Source: Amyelois transitella
Taxonomy: Eukaryota > Arthropoda > Insecta > Lepidoptera > Pyralidae
Assembly (NCBI RefSeq): GCF_032362555.1
Contig: NC_083505.1
Coordinates: 10,159,501-10,223,500 of the forward strand
Direction of reading: 5' to 3'
DNA: 64,000 nt
Made by a program: the position numbers and the translations under genes. The stretch's first letter is position 1. Every line of letters starts with the position of its first letter. Below the pieces are notes generated by a model. It did no database searches, was not told where the DNA came from, and saw nothing but the letters and a program-made list of their open reading frames with translations. Positions 16,315-57,117 of the stretch are shown here, in pieces.

Positions 16315-18499
16315 ATGGATTATTTGTTGATATACTACCTAGCCAAAAGACGACGTAGACAACAGCGGCAGCCAATCAGCCCATATGTCTCGTCCAGAAT
16401 GTTGTGTGGAGAATTTGTAACCAAGTTTACGCTATTAAGAGAAGATGAGAGGAGATTTTTTAAGTATTTTAAAATGTCAACGTCTACATTTGATGAATTA
16501 TTTTCGAAACTTGAACCATATTTGAAACATAGTGCTAATACTCTAAAAGTAAGAAGTGTATCAATTATATTACCAATAGAGAGGTTGGCAATAACGGCAA
16601 GGTAAGTAAATAAAATGTTTTTCTTGATATAAAATATTTTTATTTTGTCAGTCAAGATCACGCATGTATACAACCAAATCAGTTATTGGACTTATCATAA
16701 TCATAAGTAACAGTAAAATCACAGTGATTGGATTTATCACTTATTATAATTAACAATATTTTAATCTACAATTACTTTAATGAGAACTAAGTATAACAAT
16801 TTGGTAGTGTAGGTACATACGTAAAGTAAATCAAAATCACAGTCATTGTAATTATCATAATTAACAATATTATAAGGCTACTTCCAATCTTTGTCTTTCT
16901 TCAAATAGAGTATAAATGCAGTAAATAATTGATAATAGGATTAATGTTCTGCTTGAGTGTCATTTGTCAGTACGATGTTCGATAAATCCTCCAATGTAAT
17001 AACATTTTCTTTTTCAATGTCAATTAATAAGTTTAATACCTTTGATCGAAACAATAATTTTTGATATGTAGACAATTTTTTTATGTTTGGCATAATAGAT
17101 TTAAAAAATGACAAGTCTTCATCATTTTCTTCGTCCTTTTTGTGTTGTATGGATTGTAATAATTGTATTTCAAAAGGAGTCGGCGACGACGCCTTTTTAC
17201 GCTTTGATTGTTTTTGCGTTTCTCTGCTTGCTGTGTCATTTTCATTTCCAGATGTACTGGTCTCAGGTATTAACACCTCACTAGTGTCAACTATTGGGTG
17301 TTGGGACAATTCAAGTGTACTTGTATGACCCGAAGAGTCGTCCTGAGAATTTTCCAAAGATTCTTGTCCTTCTACTCTTTTGTTAGAGTCCAGAAAAGTC
17401 ATAATATTATAATAGCTGTACCCTTTTCCTTTTTTAGCACCAGAACCAGACTTAAGTTTCTTGTTACTAGCTTTGACTTTCGTATAGCAATCTCTCGCGG
17501 TTTTCCATCGCGCTTGTATTTTTTTTTCTGAAAAATGAAAAATAATACATACTTAAAAAATAATTTTGTATTTTTCACAGGTACTTAGTAAGTGGACATA
17601 CTTTCGTGGATATGCACTTGGCGTACCATGCGGGACAATCTACCATCCGAAAAATTGTTAATGATGTCTGTCAAATTATATGGCAAAGACTGAAAGAAGA
17701 ATGTATACCAGTATTTACACGTATGCGATGGGAAGACATAGCAGAAGGCTTTTTAAGCAACACAAATTTTCCTAACTGTTTAGGTGCTGTAGATGGAAAA
17801 CATATACGGATTATAAGACCACCTCACAGCGGATCACTTTACTACAATTACAAACATTACTATTCCATTGTCTTGCTTGCAATGTGTAACGCAAACTATG
17901 AATTCACCTACATAAATGTTGGAATACAAGGTAAAGAATCTGACTCTTCAGTTTTCACCAACAGCACTTTATTTCAACAGATGCAGGATGAGCTATTAGA
18001 TATTCCTCCTCCAAAATCATTGCCAGTGCTACAAAATAATAAACCAACCAATACTGCAGCTACCACACCAGTGCCATACGTCATAGTTGGAGATGAAGCG
18101 TTTGGACTGTCTACACATCTTATGCGACCATATGCGCGGGCTATTGCAATGGATCATAGAAAGAAAATATTTAATTATAGATTGTCAAGAGCTAGACGTT
18201 ACATTGAATCAACCTTTGGAATAATGGCCAATAAGTTTCGAATACTTCATCGTCCACTTAACGTTTCTAGAGAACATGCCATTTGTTTCATAAAAGCAAT
18301 TTGTATAATGCATAATTTTGTACGAAAAAGAGACGGATTCGGTAATATCAGCGATGTTGTCATAACACCCCGCCATATCCGCGATATCACAAATGGATTT
18401 GGGCTAGTTCAAAGAAACTCGTATACAATACGAGATCAGTTCGCTGATTACTTTGCCACAAACGGTAAGGTATCGTGGCAAGATCGCTGTATTTATTGA
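16315..18499 (+). CDS. Harbinger transposase (HARBI1-like DDE nuclease), 2 exons
   Basis: Exons 16315-16601 and 17581-18499 (donor G|GTAAGT, acceptor TTTTTCACAG) join in phase to give 401 residues. The nuclease has the HARBI1/DDE_Tnp_4 layout: first Asp in LGAVDGKHI (about residue 167), second Asp in VGDEAFGL (about 267), Glu in RRYIESTFG (about 305), and a terminal IMHNFVRKRDG. The DD(37)E spacing is normal and no catalytic residue is missing. The N-terminal part has a basic AKRRRRQQRQ stretch and a helical 'STFDELFSKLEPYL' segment typical of the family. The ATG at 16315 is the first in frame; the frame is open upstream but offers only GTG. The single intron contains most of the antisense MADF gene. 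The protein would cut and rejoin the element ends in the nucleus, with the MADF partner probably aiding nuclear import or DNA binding. Confidence 0.93.
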
Positions 18500-28726: not shown

Positions 28727-30250
28727 ATGCAAAGTGTTATCGCTTCTTTATTGTTTTTGTTTATTGCTAAAGTCAGTGCACGGTCGATATCCAACGATCA
28801 TACACTTTTCGATAGTAACTTCAAAGCGAAACTAATCGCGGAAGAATCACGAAACTATGTTGGAGGCAACCTAGTATTAAATGAAGACGAACAGAAAGTA
28901 AACGATATTTTAATGAAGTACAAGTTAGAAGAAATTGACGATTCGTTCCACAATCCCCAGTATTTTAATTTCTCTAAACATTATTTTACGTATAAAAATG
29001 ATATCGATAAATCTTCAGTGTATCAAATTATTAAGAAGATGCCCAAAGGAGCGGCGTTACATATACACAGCTCATTGATGCTCCACTCTGATGACATGCT
29101 GCTGCTGACGTATGAAGACCATTTGTACGCTTGTTATACTGGTGACAAATTAGATCTGCAATTCTCCGAGAACACCCCTGCGCGACCTTGTCCAATTAAA
29201 TGGACTCTTCTCAGTGAACTTCGCAATGCATCGGATAATGTTCAACGTTTTGATGATGAATTAAGAAAATTCTTTACGCTTTACTCTAAAGACGAAAACG
29301 TTTATAACGCGGATATTGATTATTCATGGCAACGATTTAATACTGTGTATAGAGTCATAAAATCTGTAATATCGTATAGACCTGCGCGTGAAAAATTTAT
29401 TTACATGACTTTAAAGAGATTCTATGACGATAATGTTATGTATGTGGAAATAAGAAGTGGATTGCATAATTTGTATGAACTGGATGGAACGATACATGAC
29501 AAGATATATTTGGCGGAATTATACCAACAAGTCACAGAGAAATTTATAATGGAACACCCAGATTTTCTTGGTATTAAGTTTATTTTAACAAACGGCCGGT
29601 CAGTTGATATTAAAAAAATTCAAGAAACATTACTATTCGCTCGCAAATTTAAAAACGATATGCCGGAGATATTTGCTGGCTTCGATTTAGTTGGACAAGA
29701 AGATAAGGGGAAAAGATTATCGGAATTTATGCCAGCTTTAGTTGAAGCAAAAGGCAACATAAATTACTATTTTCATGCTGGAGAAACTAATTGGCTCGGA
29801 ACAACAACTGATGAAAATTTATTTGACGCTATTGCCTTAGGAACCAAAAGAATAGGACATGGGTATGCGTTGATTAAACACCCCTCTTTGTTAGCTCATG
29901 TTCTAAATAATGATATAGCGTTGGAAGTGAATGTGATATCAAACGTCGTGCTATCATTAGTTCATGATGTAAGAAACCATCCTTTAGCTACATACCTAGC
30001 TCTCGGTGTACCTGTTGTGATATCTAGTGACGACCCTGGGGCTTGGGACTCAGATCCCTTATCTCATGATTTTTACGTGACTTTTGTTGGAGTAGCAAGC
30101 AGAAATGCTGACCTACGACTACTTAAACAATTAGCTCTAAATTCTATAAAATATAGTTCATTAGATACAGCCAGAAAAGTTCGTTTATATGAAATTTTTG
30201 AAAAGCGTTGGAAAATATTTTTATCAAACGTTATTGAAAAGTGTGGATAA
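28727..30250 (+). CDS. Adgf: Adenosine deaminase-related growth factor (ADGF/ADA2-type), intronless
   Basis: 507 residues in one uninterrupted frame. A signal peptide (MQSVIASLLFLFIAKVSA, about residues 1-18) indicates secretion. The N-terminal extension before the barrel is that of ADGF/ADA2 proteins rather than cytosolic ADA. Zinc and catalytic motifs in order: HIH (112 and 114) in MPKGAALHIH, FHAGET (His350, Glu353), RIGHGY (His378) and SSDDPGAW (Asp435, Asp436). The enzyme would deaminate extracellular adenosine to inosine; insect members act as growth factors and regulators of adenosine in haemolymph. Two positions look unusual: the residue after HIH is Ser where ADA2-type enzymes, from memory, have Asp, and the 'ISN' loop reads LEVNVISN where a Cys-Pro is common. 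The triad itself is intact, so activity is likely. Lack of any intron suggests an old retrocopy or a lineage-specific intronless paralogue. Confidence 0.93.
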   Translation: MQSVIASLLFLFIAKVSARSISNDHTLFDSNFKAKLIAEESRNYVGGNLVLNEDEQKVNDILMKYKLEEIDDSFHNPQYFNFSKHYFTYKNDIDKSSVYQIIKKMPKGAALHIHSSLMLHSDDMLLLTYEDHLYACYTGDKLDLQFSENTPARPCPIKWTLLSELRNASDNVQRFDDELRKFFTLYSKDENVYNADIDYSWQRFNTVYRVIKSVISYRPAREKFIYMTLKRFYDDNVMYVEIRSGLHNLYELDGTIHDKIYLAELYQQVTEKFIMEHPDFLGIKFILTNGRSVDIKKIQETLLFARKFKNDMPEIFAGFDLVGQEDKGKRLSEFMPALVEAKGNINYYFHAGETNWLGTTTDENLFDAIALGTKRIGHGYALIKHPSLLAHVLNNDIALEVNVISNVVLSLVHDVRNHPLATYLALGVPVVISSDDPGAWDSDPLSHDFYVTFVGVASRNADLRLLKQLALNSIKYSSLDTARKVRLYEIFEKRWKIFLSNVIEKCG

Positions 30251-35940: not shown

Positions 35941-37313
35941 AATCAGTTATAATTGAATTAGGTATATATTTGCTCTTCCGTTTATTTTTAACCCTAAAAT
36001 AATATTATGAATAAGTTAGTACCTTAATAACCATATAAAAAATAATCTAGCGCATGGTACAGGAATGAATATTGTTAATGTGACGGACATTCCCATATTT
36101 CAATGTACATGAAATGAAATTAACCGAATGGCGCCTGTGGGCCGCCCTTCGGATCGAAACAATACACGGACTGTGAATAAAATTAAAAATATCACATTGT
36201 GCCTAATTTTACATAAAGGGTCGGCTCACCCCCTAGAGGTCAAACCTTCGTTTTCACTGTTTTAAATTTATCCAAAAAAATATTATATTTCACGAGTGAA
36301 AAACTCAATTATGTCGGTATGAAAATATATTTCTTTAATGACCTAAATGTATATTTTACAAGGACTTTTGGATAATGGTACTTATATAAACGTTAGCAGC
36401 CTTATATCTAAGTCAATACGTCTGATGGTTGAAAACACATTACAACTACATATCTTGTAAAAAAAACTCATAATGAAATACATAATTCTGTTAAGTTCAC
36501 TAAATTATGCTATTAACTAAAAGTAATTTTAGAAATGTATCCTTTCAAGAGTAGGTATTGCCCATAAGCTAAGACTATAAAATAAACAAGTACATGTATC
36601 AGTACAATTTCACACCATATTTAAATTTGGAATTTATTATTGCAAATTCAAATTGTCATACGTTTGGTAAATCCAGTCAGATTTACTAAGCCCGCCCATG
36701 ACTGAACTGTGTGAATTGGATTGCACGACCTGGTTGCCCTAACTAAACTACATTACCGGCTCAGGATAACAGGGTGACATTAGATTATCTTCATCGTTAC
36801 TGTTATTAAGTATAAATGAATTTATTGCTACTGTGTTATCATTTATGAAGACTTATCTGGCTAAGTTTTTGCTTAAGATAATAATTTTCGTAGCTTAGCA
36901 ATTTTTATGCGAATTTTTGATAAAATTATAGGAATTACGAATTTTCTCAGACGTGGAATCCGGACAGAATAATTTTTGCCCCTGTATTTCCTATTCCAAC
37001 AAAATCTTTATAACAGTTTTTGAAAACGTGAGTAGGTATATATGGTTTCACTCTTTTATAAAATATACTACCTAATAAAAACATGCTTCGGATGTATTCT
37101 ACAGTTCGAAGACATGAAGATACGAAGGTACTGATGTTATGTTCATTAATTTTTTAATCATTGGAGTAGTTTTTATTTCTGTCTATATTTCTATCATATC
37201 GCTATTTTAACTTTTAACCTCAATTAGTAATTAGTCAATGACCGACCTCGTATGATAATAAAATTAGGTAAATGTTATCTTTTTTGTTAAGTTTTTATCG
37301 ATCTTTATTTCGA

Positions 37314-37369: not shown

Positions 37370-37436
37370 TTTCGAGACTGTTGGCTCTGCCTACTCCGTA
37401 AGGTATAAAGACATAATAATATTTATATGTATGTAA
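37370..37436 (+). repeat. SINE (TATG-tail family), 3' end only, in the 3' UTR of the CLIP-like gene
   Basis: 'ACTGTTGGCTCTGCCTACTC' then a (TATG) tail that ends 3 bases from the minus-strand stop codon at 37440. The transcript's 3' untranslated region would therefore be almost entirely repeat-derived. Confidence 0.7.
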
Positions 37437-37439
37437 CGG

Positions 37440-39611
37440 TTATTGATTAAATATATCCACTGGCTGTACCCTAGTCCGGAAGACCTTGCAGCAAACGTGG
37501 TCTCTCTCCTGGTCACACGTTTCTGCCGAGTCTTCCATCAGCTGGTTCCATCGGCATGCTTTGGATTCCAGGCAAATCCCGTTGCCTTTTGCACAGAACA
37601 TCAGATGCAACTCTGTAATTTAAAAAAATAAACAAACATTAAAAATCTTTATTTAACAAACTACTTACCAAAATCAAATCGGAATGAAATAACAAATAGA
37701 AATGCCGCATTTAACTAGATACTTTAGGAATAATGTATCATCATCATGCATCGCATGCAACTTTATGCATCTGTAAAGCTATCAAATGAATGTTTTAAAG
37801 TCTAAATGATTTCTTTGCCGTAATCTAGTGTATTACCCAGAATAAGAAAGAATTGTATAATAAGACTCAAATATAACTAGATCAAAAAGTTAAAAAGATT
37901 TATTTTCCATAACTAGCACAATTAGGTGCGAGGTCTACCTTTTCATTTGATCTATGTTTTACAGTACAATCTCCCTAAAAAGAAAACAAACCTTTTTGCG
38001 GGCAGAGTCGTGTAAAAATACTGCATGAATGCCAGATTGTGTCGATAAATTATTCACAAAACCCAACTGAAATCCTTTGAATGAATTTTTAATTCTTTGA
38101 TATATAAATTCTTTGTTCGCCGTATGTTTTAATGATCCTCTCCAGTGATGTGAGTTCGTAATCAGGACGCCACCAAGAGGATGATGAACAAATGGCTTTA
38201 TATACAAAAGGTTTATAAATATCTCGTACTTATTTCTTGTGGTGCTAACGTAGCATCGTTGAACAGTCAGCATTTAAAGCTAGATAACTTACGTGACTCT
38301 AAGTCTTACCAACTGTTTTAAGTTATTCTAAGTTGGAATTGGAGCTGCGGTCTAACTCAACCTAACAGCGGCCAGTCCGAGTCTGCCAAGTATCTGATTC
38401 AGCGATTCTCCTTCAACTTCTAAAGCGAATTTATATCGAAAAGAACAACTTACAACTCCATTCGTGTGGAATTTTACAAGTGTTGGCCAAGCGAAATAAT
38501 TCTTAGATTTTATGCCGTTTAATAATCTTGAAAATTCTTTAAAATCAAGATCAAATGATGATTTAGATTAATGTGTTAATTGTTTCAAGAACAGAAAGGT
38601 AAAACGTCCGCAAAACATTATTAAAAAAAAATGTGAAATTTTATTCTTCTAGTACCTATACGAGTGTACAACGCTTTGCATGCTTTTGTACTTTAATATC
38701 ATCCATAGGGTAGTAACCTAAAAGTTAATGAAAATGTAAAATACCAAATAATTTTCTAGTTTCATCTTTACACCCAATAAGTCCATTACTAGAAGGATAG
38801 GCTTACAAACTTGGAAATTTTTTTTAGGCGATGGACTAGCAACCTGTCACTATTTGAATGTCAATTCTATCATTAAGCCAAATAGCTGAACGTAGCCATT
38901 CAGCCTTTTATAGACTGTTGGCTCTGTCTACCCCGCAAGAGATATAGACGTGACCATATGTATGTATGTATATGTCCATTACTATTCGCTTGAGTTGTGA
39001 TATACCTAATTGTGTTCCAGCGGGCGGGGTGCAAATTAGCGTTTCATAATTAGTAAAGTTAAGAACACGTTCTGAAAATTCGCTTTGTTAAATTACCCGC
39101 CAGGCAAGTTAGTATTTACGTTGACTTTATGACCCATGTCAGTTTGTATGCACTCGTATGCACACGTGAGCAAAATGTGAAACAAGTGCAGGGCTATAGT
39201 AAGCGCTGCTTTTGAAATGCAGGTAGGTACAGTTGACGGCAGATTTACCTACTTTACTTATGCAAGTACATTGTGGTTTATCAGCTTCTTGCTTTCGCGT
39301 ATAAAATTGTCTACTGACTGACAATCAAATAGGAATAGTACTTTTTATCGGGATTATAAACGGGGCATTTTCCTTATTACCTTTTTAGAAAAAACATGGC
39401 AAATTTAACTAGCGTAAAGTCAATTCTTATAGTGTCCATTCGGTGGTTGCATTAATAAAACTAGTATAAGTATAAATAAATATGTCTACTTACTTGTGCC
39501 TCTCTTTTCTCTACTATTGTGCACTTTTATTAAATAGTCCAATGCCTGTGATCCTAAAAACTGCACAGCAAGCAACGCATAACAAATAAGCACTACTTTC
39601 GATCGAAACAT
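37440..39611 (-). CDS. Secreted prepropeptide with a CLIP-like six-cysteine domain, 2 exons
   Basis: Minus exons 39611-39494 and 37612-37440, joined by good splice sites (ACAA|GTAAGT; TTACAG|AG), give 96 residues in phase; each exon alone is too short to stand out. The N-terminus is a textbook signal peptide (MFRSKVVLICYALLAVQFLG, cleavage near residue 23). A short pro-segment follows, ending in REKR at residues 34-37, a furin-type site. The mature part of about 59 residues has six cysteines at 46, 53, 59, 72, 80 and 81 (C-x6-C-x5-C-x12-C-x7-CC). The C-x5-C in the middle and the final CC are the signature of arthropod CLIP domains, which pair Cys 1-5, 2-4 and 3-6. Unlike clip-serine proteases no catalytic domain follows: translation stops 15 residues after CC. 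It may act as a free CLIP peptide in haemolymph signalling or immunity; that is inference. It could also be a different disulfide-rich fold. Confidence 0.78.
38792..38972 (+). repeat. SINE (TATG-tail family), lacking the 5' head
   Basis: 'GATAGGCTTACAAACTTGGA' to 'TATGTATGTATATG', in the intron of the CLIP-like peptide gene, antisense to it. Confidence 0.85.
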
Positions 39612-39814: not shown

Positions 39815-39960
39815 ATTATTTTGTCGAAGGGCCAGTAACCTGAAAATATTCAAATCTCAATTTGTTATTACCTACCAACAAACAAAGCTTTTCAGTATTT
39901 TCAAAACGGTTGGCTCTGTCTACGGGGGTAAGGGATACAGACGTAATAATGTGTATGTGT
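39815..39960 (+). repeat. SINE (TATG-tail family), decayed
   Basis: 'GTCGAAGGGCCAGTAACCTG', 'CGGTTGGCTCTGTCTACGGG' and a tail at about 39950, just upstream of the CLIP-like gene. Confidence 0.65.
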
Positions 39961-40689
39961 TGGTAATAGGAATACAAATGAAAATCTCTATTCCGAACAA
40001 ATTATATTCATATAAAGAATTTTTCTAAATTGACAAAACTGTGCACATACAATTTTCTTTTTCTGTGGAAGCTTTTGTTGAAGGTTGACTTTGACACTTT
40101 ATCGGTGGACACCTGCTCCTGCCCAAAGAGGGATAGGCGACTAGGACAAACGCCAGGATGAGAATAGCGATAATTGATTTAAGTCTAGTTTGATCATCAT
40201 AGTCAAACCTGTATATATATAAAAAAACCCTTCCGTTACTGAAATACTTATTATGATGCCTAGGGGTGCATTAAGAGAGGATTTCCCTTATCACGAGAAC
40301 AGAAATTATCATTTTTGATTTACGCGGCACGAGCCGCGGGCGAACGTATGTAAAAAAAAAATTAAATAATTTTTTTTATCAAAATTATTTTCTTCAACAG
40401 TGCTAAGCGTATATATGAAAAGAACGGCTTGGCTTTTTCTTTTGTGCCAACGGGATTCCAGATACCAATTACGTTCTTTATACACATTCATCCCTAATCA
40501 TAATATAGGTACATACTGAATGAAAAGCCCTTAATTTCCCTCACCTTGACAACGCCTATTGATTCGGAACGCTGCATGTACGTTTCTTTGAAATCAATGT
40601 GATATAGAGAGAGGATTTGTTCAAATTAATTTACTTTTTCACAATTTTTTCATTTGATTTTCCATTCTTAGCACGGGTAAGTCTTTCAT

Positions 40690-40920
40690 ACCAACATACA
40701 ATCACGTCCATATACCTTACGGGGTAGACAGAGCCAACAGTCTTTTCACGACTGTTGGCTGTTTCTTTCATTCCATAATTTATTTGTAAGGAAGCAGTAC
40801 GAGTAGTAGGTATCTACTTTTATACCAACAGTCCCGAAAAGTCTGAAAGGCCAAGTTCGGCTGTGTAGCTTAATGGAGAAATTCACATAGTGACAGGTTG
40901 CCAGCCCATCGAATAAAAGA
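40690..40920 (-). repeat. SINE (TATG-tail family), internally rearranged
   Basis: Starts as a normal minus copy ('ATACCTTACGGGGTAGACAG'), then an inverted piece 'GACTGTTGGCTGTTTC' interrupts it, and the minus copy resumes ('CAGTCCCGAAAAGTCTGAAA' to 'ACAGGTTGCCAGCCCATCG'). The inversion produces a local hairpin AGCCAACAGTC/GACTGTTGGCT. Confidence 0.8.
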
Positions 40921-49135: not shown

Positions 49136-50513
49136 ATGTTATTATCTTGGGTAAGTATGTATGAAGCATTTGCGTTTATGATATAACTTGTTTTTTTTTC
49201 TGGAAGAGATCAACATTTAATTAAATTATGGCAGAACAGAAATATCAAGAATGTAAGTAAAATAATGTATTTCACAGGGCGCCAACTCTCATGGCCAGCT
49301 TGGTCAGGGTATAGTCAATGAACAAATAGAGAAACCAACACAGGTTGAAATAAAATCTTTGCACTGTGATGAAATTACTCAGATTGCATGCGGTGGGGGC
49401 CACACTTTACTGCTTGATGCGGAAGGGAAATTGTACTCTTGTGGGTGGAATAACAAAAGACAATTAGGGAAAGATGAAGAAACACACAGGTTTGAAAGAG
49501 TCTGGCAGCTCAGTGGCATATCATTTGTAAATATTGCATGTGGTTGGGATTTCAGCTGTGGGGTCACTGATAGTAACTTCTTGTTTGTTTGGGGATCCAA
49601 CAGCAATGGCCAACTAGGATTACCCAGAGATCACTTCTCAGAATTTGTTAAACCAATAAGACTGCAAGTCAATGCAATGGATGTTTCTATGGGACTAAGG
49701 CACACAGCCATTGTAAATTCTAAAGGCGAAGTATGGGTAACAGGTTGTGGCAAACATGGTCAACTAGGTTTAGGAAATGAGAGATTGTCTTCAGATAGAT
49801 TTGAGCAAGTACCCAAAGTTGGTAAAGTATCCCATATAGCATGTGGACAGAATCACACGGTGACTTGGTGTTCTGAAGAAAAAGCTTTGTATGTTTGGGG
49901 TGACAATAAACATGGGCAACTGTTGCTTAGCATTGAAAAGTATAAGAAGATTTTCACACCTCAAAAGATTGATATTGATGTTAAAAAGGAAGTAAAAAAA
50001 TTGCTTAGCGGCTGGACCAATGTTCTTTTATGGTTGGAGAATGGAACTATGTATACCTGGGGTCGCAATAATTATGGTCAACTTGGAACTGAAGATGCAT
50101 TTGTTGGTAAAATAATTAAGATAAATCTACCAGGTATGACTTCATTATAATATAGCTTTACTTATTGTCTAGCATTCAGTTTAAAATAATTACTTTATCT
50201 TTTTACATTGATATGTTTTATTACAGATGATAGAGAAGTCAAAGATGTTGCTCTTGGATCTGAACATACAGTGTGTATAGCCACAGACAATACTTTATGG
50301 GCATGGGGCTGGAATGAACATGCTAACACAGGGACTGGCACCTGTGACAGTGTAAACACCCCAACTTTAGTGCCTTTAGACATAGGTGCAAACAAAATAT
50401 CAACAGTGTTTGCTGGGGGAGCTCAAAATTTTGTAATAGTAACTTTGAATACTGAAACTAAAACTATAAGTGACGAGACTTTTGATATCAATGATGAGGA
50501 AAGCACGGAATAA
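49136..50513 (+). CDS. Sergef: RCC1-repeat protein, SERGEF/DelGEF-like, 3 exons
   Basis: Exons 49136-49150, 49278-50133 and 50227-50513 join in phase (donors GTAAGT and GTATGA; acceptors TTCACAG and TTACAG) to give 385 residues. Seven RCC1-type blades are marked by WGANSHGQLG, CGWNNKRQLG, WGSNSNGQLG, GCGKHGQLG, WGDNKHGQL, WGRNNYGQLG and WGWNEHANTG, and by repeated IACG.GHT/HT strands. Exon 1 is only five codons (MLLSW), and its Trp is completed by the GANSHG of exon 2. The length and the whole protein being one seven-blade propeller, followed by a short acidic Thr/Glu-rich tail, fit the SERGEF (secretion-regulating guanine nucleotide exchange factor, DelGEF) family, linked to exocyst/Sec5. 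Any exchange activity is unproven even in mammals. Another member of the RCC1 superfamily is possible. Confidence 0.85.
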
Positions 50514-53367: not shown

Positions 53368-54497
<1,130 letters not shown>

Positions 54498-54582: not shown

Positions 54583-56671
54583 CTAAGAATTAAGCAAATC
54601 TATGGTCCTTGATATTTGAGAATATAGTTCTTTTAAATCAGACCCACATTCTTGGTTAGGTTCTTTGTTGGTCATAAAATCATTAAACATTTGGTCCCAT
54701 TCTCCATGGTAATGGTCAGAGTCATCATTCATCCTCTGAAAAAGTACAAAGTTTCCATAAAAGAGTATAAACAACTTTTATTAAATAAATAATAGTGACA
54801 AAGAAATACCTCAGTTGAAGTACCATCATCGTTGGGATCATTGCTCACTGAAGGAAGAACACAGTTCAAAGAGATGTGCTCATTTTCTTTCCCTGTTGCC
54901 TTTCTTACAATACCATCATGAACATCATGCTGAATGTCAAACTCTGCTAGCAATTCTACAGATTTGGTATCTATAGGCTCAGTATCCAATTCTGGCATAC
55001 TCAAAAACTGAATAGGAAAGTTATCATTGTTCTGTTGACATGACTCTTCATCATTGAAGTTTACCAGATTTTCCTGAGTAGAATTCCTGTAATGCAAAAA
55101 TTTCAAAGAAATCAGAATAGTAATGTACAATGACAGTATTGTACTTGAAAGTAGAGAAATTATGTATCTTATATTTAATGTGCGCAGTTTTCTATGCAAT
55201 TTTAAGGCTATTAGAGATACAATATGACAATGTCACAACCATCAGGTGCAATGTCACATTCATCAGTACTTGCCACTTCTATAATCTTATATTTTTAAGT
55301 CTATGCAAAATAATGAGAATGAACATAATTTAAATAATTATTATTTACTAGCTGTGCCCGCAACTTCGTCCGCGTGGAATAGTTGTTTTACATCTTCCAC
55401 TATTTCTTTGCTTCTTATAGTTTCAGTGTGATCTTATATAGCCTAAAGCCTTCCTCGATAAATGTTTTATTCAACGCAAAAAGAATTTTTCAATTCGAAC
55501 CAGTAGTTCCTGAGATTAGTGCGTTCAAACAAACAAACTCTTCAGCTTTATAATATTAGTATAGATTGCCTGCAATGTACTTACTCATAACTTTCATTGT
55601 TCAGCATGGTGTTTTTAAAGTCTTGAGAATCTCCATTGGCTGTACATAGGAAAAGGATGGAAAATGATGTATTAAGAAAATGTAAGGAAATGAACATAAA
55701 AATGGAATAAGGGAAAAGAAACCTGTTGGTGGGATAGGTTTTTCGGGATCTTTATTAAAATTGTTAGAGGTGCCAAACCAATCAAATTCAGCCTCTTCAT
55801 CATCACAAAAATCATCTTGTCCATCTGTAAGAATAATCCATAATATTGTTAATTAAGTGTATTGAAGAGTATTCTAGATGACCTATGTAATCACATCATT
55901 TCTTATAGGGAAGACAGAGCCTATAGTCTAAAAATCATCATCTAGATTCTCAATTCCATCATTAAGCCATCAGCGTAATGATGGAATTGAGAATCTAGAC
56001 ATCAAACTTGATGCCCTTCATGGAGTGCAACTTTAAGTACCATACATGACATGAAAGGGCCTAAAGGTATGATGTGAATGGAATACCTTCAGACTCAAGA
56101 TTACAAAGATGTTTTGAAGAGCTTTGCATGAACAAGTCTTGAGTAGCTTTTTTCAGGGCTTCATGGAAAGCTCGACGAGCTTTTTGCAGAGGTGTCAAGT
56201 ACAGCATTTGATCAGGACTACCCTAAAATATAAGTTAATTTTAAAATATTGCCATTACTAACATATGAGGTAATAACAACAATCATTTTAAAGATTTACC
56301 TTTGATTTATATGTCTTTCTAATAGCTAATGCTTTTCTAGTTATTTTATTTAACATTTCTGGTCTTCCGTATTGAAAATAATCATGCACATATTCATGCA
56401 TGTAGGGATTACTAGAGTTACAAAGAGGGTCTTGTAAGTGGGAGGTGACTTTTCGAAACCCATATAAATTCAACTGTCTGACAAAACTAGATATATTAGT
56501 AGTTTTGAATATTGAATGGTCGCATTGCAAATAATAATGGAGGATTCGATAATTCAACAGTATTGTGCGTCCTGTGCCGCCCCACAAAATAGCTTCTGTG
56601 TTCATGTTGAGCAAATACCATAATTTTTGCGGAAAACGCATCTGAAAAATAGCGTTTTTATCGTCCTGCAT
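54583..56671 (-). CDS. Divergent HSF-type DNA-binding protein (HSF5/HSFY-like), 6 exons
   Basis: Minus exons 56671-56300, 56222-56087, 55824-55723, 55639-55585, 55086-54810 and 54735-54583 join in phase to give 364 residues. Residues about 12-115 are an HSF winged-helix domain: 'RFPQKLWYLLN', 'ILWGGTGRTILLN', the recognition helix segment 'FKTTNISSFVRQLNLYGF' and 'GRPEMLNKITRKA'. The FKTTN-type recognition region is like HSF5/HSFY rather than classical HSF1. There is no obvious leucine-zipper HR-A/B region; the rest is acidic and low-complexity ('DDEEAEFDWFG', 'VNFNDEESCQQ') with a hydrophobic-spaced C-terminus, as in an activation domain. A role in germ-line transcription, as for vertebrate HSFY/HSF5, is a guess. 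It is divergent to the zeste-like gene. Confidence 0.87.
55346..55566 (+). repeat. CTAG-headed interspersed repeat, full length
   Basis: Starts CTAGCTGTGCCCGCAACTTC and ends 'AATATTAGTATAGAT'. It lies in an intron of the HSF-like gene, antisense to it. The head and the end motif are common to many lepidopteran copies; class is uncertain (Helitron-like or RTE-dependent SINE). Confidence 0.75.
55944..56002. repeat. Inverted SINE fragments forming a hairpin
   Basis: 'ATTCTCAATTCCATCATTAA' (plus-sense SINE piece) is followed directly by its complement 'AATGATGGAATTGAGAAT', giving a perfect stem within an intron of the HSF-like gene. Confidence 0.75.
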
Positions 56672-57117
56672 TGTTCTTAATGCGATGCTTAGTCCTTAAA
56701 GATTATTGATAATTAATATTTAATTAAAAAAAGCTTTTTCTCGCGAATTATGAACTTCTTCAAAAGTTCAAAAATTGCGCTGATCTGACTGACTGACGTT
56801 TACTGATGTGCGACTGTGCGTGACTGACGTGACATTCAGTGTTGCTAACGACATTTGATAAAAGCGCTCATAGATAAAACCTAATAAAAGCGCTAGATAG
56901 GACCTGTGGAAGGACTGTGTTGCCTCGAATTTGGTGTACTTTAAATAAATGTTTTATACAGAAACGCAAGAACGTAAGATATGAACAAGAGCTATATGTG
57001 GATTGAATTGAAGGGTCGGCTCGGCGATGTTCTCAGGAGCGGCGACTTGCGCGCGCAGACATTGTCCTTTTTTTAATTTAAACGATTCGCAAATTTAGCA
57101 TATCTATGTTCTTACTC

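Follow-up and report, generated by a model that had tools for sequence, protein, structure and literature searches.

A two-exon gene for a small secreted peptide is probably present on the minus strand of the moth DNA analysed here (referred to as the window), a stretch of 64,000 nucleotides that corresponds to bases 10159501-10223500 of contig 1 in a genome of 327 Mb. The explanation we favour, with moderate confidence, is that this gene is real and that its product is an orphan, furin-processed, near-neutral peptide with three disulfides, which would act as a soluble binder rather than as a membrane-lytic agent. If expressed and conserved, the product would be a small moth peptide, secreted and with three disulfides, that escapes Pfam, NCBIfam and PDB searches.

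Joining 39611..39494 to 37612..37440 on the minus strand gives a precursor of 96 residues (P0001) that is open without a break to a TAA stop codon. The coding part of exon 1 (39494..39611) consists of the ATG, a signal peptide, a propeptide ending in REKR and the first base of a phase-1 split codon. Its translation from the ATG at 39611 is MFRSKVVLICYALLAVQFLGSQA-LDYLIKVHNSREKR-GT, with a GTAAGT donor after 39494 (ACAA/GTAAGTAG). The GT-AG intron is in phase 1 and is 1881 nt long (37613..39493). The acceptor (TTTATTTTTTTAAATTACAG/AG, in the fuller context TTTTTTTAAATTACAG) keeps the frame into exon 2, which starts at 37612, encodes the remainder of the mature peptide, KLHLMFCAKGNGICLESKACRWNQLMEDSAETCDQERDHVCCKVFRTRVQPVDIFNQ, and ends with the stop at 37440 (37440..37612). 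An earlier note, made from the letters of this DNA, had the coordinates, splice consensus and phase right; its signal peptide and REKR furin-type site are present in the exon 1 translation, and its C-x6-C-x5-C-x12-C-x7-CC pattern is exact in exon 2. A candidate polyadenylation signal, AATAAA (37304..37309, minus strand), is located 131 nt past the stop, and this gives weak support to the gene because three further AATAAA/ATTAAA hexamers are found within 620 nt of the stop in AT-rich DNA.

The signal peptide (39543..39611, minus strand) has a 12-residue core with a mean hydropathy of 2.48 and is presumably cleaved after SQA, in line with the -3/-1 rule. The propeptide (39501..39542, minus strand) ends in a furin-type R-x-K-R site, as seen in both the translation and the exon-1 pattern described below. 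The six-cysteine domain (37488..37595, minus strand) was delimited by pattern scan and spacing comparison; its spacing is 6,5,12,7,0, with 36 residues from Cys1 to Cys6, and it is followed by a free tail of 15 residues after the CC. The mature peptide is 59 residues long (6.8 kDa, pI 6.9) and contains 8 K/R and 8 D/E, giving a charge of about -0.1. The near neutrality favours a soluble binder, be it an enzyme inhibitor or a ligand, over a membrane-lytic peptide.

In the proposed mechanism, the signal peptide would be taken off the 96-residue prepropeptide and a furin-like convertase would cleave after REKR. The released 59-residue peptide would fold round three disulfides, probably paired 1-5, 2-4 and 3-6, the arrangement of CLIP and beta-defensin-like domains, and could then serve as a soluble extracellular binder in haemolymph, gut or gland. 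This mode of action is read from the charge and the cysteine frame alone because no known family was matched. The single-sequence AlphaFold2 model of the peptide is poor, with a mean pLDDT of 45.8.

The case for a real gene draws on the open spliced frame, with its strong splice sites and agreeing phase, and on two exon signatures. The exon-1 pattern (ATG, hydrophobic core, R-x-K/R-R and a GTRAG donor) has one match in the window, which is exactly exon 1 (39494..39611), and has none in 60 order-4 Markov windows. The broad six-cysteine pattern likewise matches the window once, all six frames counted, and 200 Markov windows (order 4, trained on this window and of equal size) contained two matches to it and one to a tighter pattern, compared with one each in the real window. 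Both signatures are on one strand, in the right order, 1.9 kb apart and with phases that agree, a combination that would seldom arise by accident; since the patterns were picked after the peptide had been seen, the odds obtained from these scans flatter it. The GC content of exon 2 is 49%, compared with 34% for the window, and is reached by 1.5% of 168-bp stretches, which is weak evidence for a gene. A codon score, run with no effective positive control, put 32 of 158 open stretches of non-coding DNA level with exon 2 or above it, and rated one alternative frame of exon 2 higher than the proposed coding frame.

When the mature peptide was searched against the genome in six frames (E up to 10), this place was the only match. 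It matched no Pfam family (E up to 10) and no NCBIfam family, and phmmer against the PDB returned 10 weak matches (best E 1.1), with no CLIP, defensin or (tick) carboxypeptidase inhibitor among them. Two real CLIP exons of the genome, used as queries in the same way, matched solved CLIPs with E values of 2.4e-8 and 1.9e-9; one exon of the CLIP_1 type matched no solved CLIP. Seven stretches in viral contigs fit a search pattern, none of which was confirmed as a relative.

Other parts of the window are recognised by Pfam. These are an adenosine deaminase-related protein (28727-30247, plus strand), which has 507 residues in a single uninterrupted frame and a hydrophobic N-terminus, RCC1 repeats (49266-50510), a proteasome subunit (53670-54245) and an HSF DNA-binding domain (56291-56695, minus strand). 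A transposable-element pair is located at 16941-18499, where a DDE transposase frame of PF13359 on the plus strand (17564-18496) adjoins a frame for a MADF/BESS protein on the minus strand; the element is one that we take to be Harbinger/PIF. A dispersed repeat with the core GTAGACAGAGCCAACAGTCT has 13 copies in the window (up to 3 mismatches) against a mean of 0.00 in shuffles, and its copies include 37375-37394 past the stop of the peptide gene, 38912-38931 in the intron, and 39904-39923 and 40724-40743 upstream. A repeat-derived open reading frame was considered and rejected, given that exon 2 is matched nowhere else in the genome and that this repeat comes no closer than a copy past the stop (37375-37394).

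Also upstream, at 40025-40225 on the minus strand, is a small exon-like frame in which the acceptor-like site TATATATACAG is followed by hydrophobic residues and then by a tail with cysteines (RSRCPPIKC...ENCMC). It has no in-frame ATG ahead of it, one match in the genome and no Pfam family, and is possibly part of a separate secreted-peptide gene.

Three more specific identities can be proposed for the peptide, as a CLIP, an inhibitor or a defensin, each of which is a narrower reading that partly overlaps the preferred one. The first, possible if doubtful, is a free-standing and diverged CLIP, perhaps of the PPAF-II/CLIP_1 kind, whose protease has been lost or was never present, and whose part in clip-protease cascades would be that of competitor or cofactor. 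The CLIP rules set out for the honey bee in PMC1761132 are a Cys2-Cys3 distance of exactly five (with one exception), a Cys3-Cys4 distance below 16 in group 1 and a Cys1-Cys6 span of 30-70 residues. The peptide, with six cysteines of which Cys5 and Cys6 are adjacent, agrees with these rules at 5, 12 and 36 residues respectively. The GxC before Cys2 and the V before the CC also recall CLIPs, and one CLIP_1-type exon of the genome (L013) has the same first two spacings, 6,5. Against this, the PF12032 profile found 9 matches in the genome (E up to 0.001) and that of PF18322, also known as CLIP_1, found 5 (E up to 10), and the peptide was among neither.

Residue-level similarity was assessed with a CLIP profile built from nine CLIPs, seven of them exons from this genome, not all complete, and two of them PDB chains. 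Two of the exons are partial (L006 and L007) and four are without the final CC (L002, L003, L005 and L008); exclusions were L004, which is nearly identical to L005, L009, which is the window itself, L011, L014 and the ninth PF12032 match. In a leave-one-out control, each of the nine CLIPs outscored all of 1000 cysteine-preserving shuffles made from it. For the peptide the score was -2.2 bits, which 896 of 1000 such shuffles equalled or exceeded. Three exons of the CLIP_1 type were equalled or beaten on this main profile by 1 (L010), 240 (L012) and 602 (L013) of 1000 shuffles, and with these three added to form a second profile the peptide was equalled or beaten by 766 of 1000. Because L012 and L013 also failed the main model, the shuffle test is weak for domains of the CLIP_1 type, and the peptide may still have a distant origin of the CLIP_1 type. 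The description "CLIP-like" in the earlier note thus holds for the cysteine spacing (C2-C3 five, C3-C4 below 16) and does not extend to Pfam or to the shuffles: the label is backed by spacing alone, with no residue-level signal of the PF12032 kind.

The structure of the gene bears on the same question. In four of the five PF12032 exons of this genome that are in the test set and reach Cys4 (L002, L003, L005 and L008), the reading frame continues past the matched stretch without reaching a CC, suggesting an intron ahead of the CC that the peptide gene lacks. The remaining exon, L001, contains its CC within the same exon, as does the peptide gene, and since neither has an intron before the CC, gene structure is not decisive on a CLIP origin. 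The earlier note took the peptide to end without running on into a protease. This is borne out by the stop at 37440 and by simple regular expressions for trypsin landmarks, which picked out no convincing site on the window's minus strand, in a search that an intron within a motif would defeat; continuation into a protease is therefore unlikely. An exon of a CLIP protease was likewise rejected, on the stop codon, the lack of a strong donor past the CC by eye and the result of the simple expressions. Elsewhere in the genome, on contig 25, the nearly identical CLIP exons L004 and L005 lie on opposite strands with about 64 kb between them, suggesting that a CLIP gene has recently undergone inverted duplication.

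An unlikely identity is that of a carboxypeptidase-inhibitor-like peptide (similar to the tick inhibitor, or MEROPS I68), the C-terminal tail of which would be inserted into a metallocarboxypeptidase. Tick-type carboxypeptidase inhibitors act with a C-terminal tail that enters the metallocarboxypeptidase, and the peptide has a free tail of 15 residues beyond its CC. A double-domain peptide of this type is described from Thaumetopoea, with similar ones in Bombyx and Helicoverpa (PMC11335235), and activity has been measured for a Bombyx carboxypeptidase inhibitor (PMC9861121). The frame is also close to that of the rusticalin repeats, Cx6Cx6-7Cx8Cx7CC, which PMC6339383 likens to beta-defensin and to the tick carboxypeptidase inhibitor. 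Counting against an inhibitor are the double-domain scaffold of the moth peptides as described in PMC11335235, compared with the single domain here (a likeness by description, not by sequence), and a survey from 2017 (PMC5673224), by which I68 itself was confined to ticks.

A beta-defensin-like (trans-defensin) host-defence peptide is quite unlikely. Its attraction is the plan of the precursor: big defensins are described as having a signal peptide, a prodomain with a dibasic furin-like site at its end and, with pairing 1-5, 2-4 and 3-6, six cysteines in a cationic part (PMC7203481). The precursor here follows the same layout, without the hydrophobic N-terminal domain of big defensins. Its signal, pro-region and dibasic site are all present, but the six-cysteine part is near neutral and not cationic. 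In addition, PF14862 has no match in the genome and PF00711 has five sub-threshold matches, none at the peptide gene, while PMC7203481 reports that insects had, as of 2020, no trace of big defensins. NF-kB-like motifs in the 1500 bp upstream are at chance level, with one loose GGGRNNNYYY site (about one is expected) and no match to GGGRNNYYCC.

A chance pair of open reading frames, or a decayed and unexpressed gene, is improbable, as two signatures that are each rare by chance would have to share a strand, stand in the right order and agree in phase, even though the gene is known from DNA alone, the codon score is uninformative, exon 1 is 1.9 kb away and the chance tests were designed post hoc. 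It is a long shot that the peptide is an insect molecule of trans-defensin type, in which a stand-alone CLIP/beta-defensin cystine frame released by a convertase acts as a soluble regulator and is possibly a living link between CLIPs and beta-defensins; if true, it would place such a link within a group reported to be without big defensins.

The preferred reading, an orphan soluble binder, can be set beside several known systems. Arthropod CLIP domains (PF12032 and PF18322) resemble the peptide in their six cysteines ending in CC, the five residues between C2 and C3, the GxC and the V. Compared with the PF12032 CLIPs of its own genome and the PDB, which have spacings of 9,5,24,9,0 or similar, the peptide is shorter between C1 and C2, C3 and C4, and C4 and C5, and is without residue-level similarity. 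It also differs from CLIP proteins in that no protease domain is recognised after it, and from most, not all, CLIP exons of its genome in having no intron before the CC.

The closest precedent for a CLIP-type frame that stands alone comes from the venom of the oak processionary moth, where a pair of CLIP proteins that lack a catalytic domain, U-TPTX6-Tp1-2, has been reported (PMC11335235). Like the peptide, they are secreted moth products with a CLIP-type frame and no protease. They differ, as far as can be told from their description, in having the CLIP at residues 63/64-109 and the PPAF-II tyrosine, and the word "furin" is absent from the main text of that paper. With these two proteins already reported, a free-standing CLIP, which the earlier note regarded as a different kind of molecule if released by furin, would have a precedent among moths. 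The role in the Toll or prophenoloxidase cascades that was suggested for it is speculation. One survey of CLIPs in the genome of a moth was designed to discard any sequence that had no protease domain (PMC10036332), and peptides of the present kind would for this reason be absent from it.

The tick inhibitor, U-TPTX10-Tp1 and the Bombyx inhibitor resemble the peptide as small, secreted, cysteine-rich peptides of a kind known in moths. The tick and Thaumetopoea inhibitors have beta-defensin-like domains according to their descriptions, which are also the basis for comparing the double-domain moth scaffold with the one domain of the peptide. Big defensins share the plan of signal, short pro-region, dibasic site and six cysteines as described for them, and differ in their hydrophobic N-terminal domain; they, beta-defensins and panusins all have a cationic six-cysteine domain, in contrast to the charge of about -0.1 here. 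The resemblance between the cysteines of CLIPs and those of beta-defensins is itself remarked on in PMC11335235. Because similar frames occur in all three groups, the cysteine frame alone does not decide among CLIP, beta-defensin-like and inhibitor-like peptides, and the peptide may descend from any of these fold relatives. The frame of the peptide falls between CLIPs, beta-defensin-like domains and carboxypeptidase inhibitors, and its structure would bear on whether the three share an origin.
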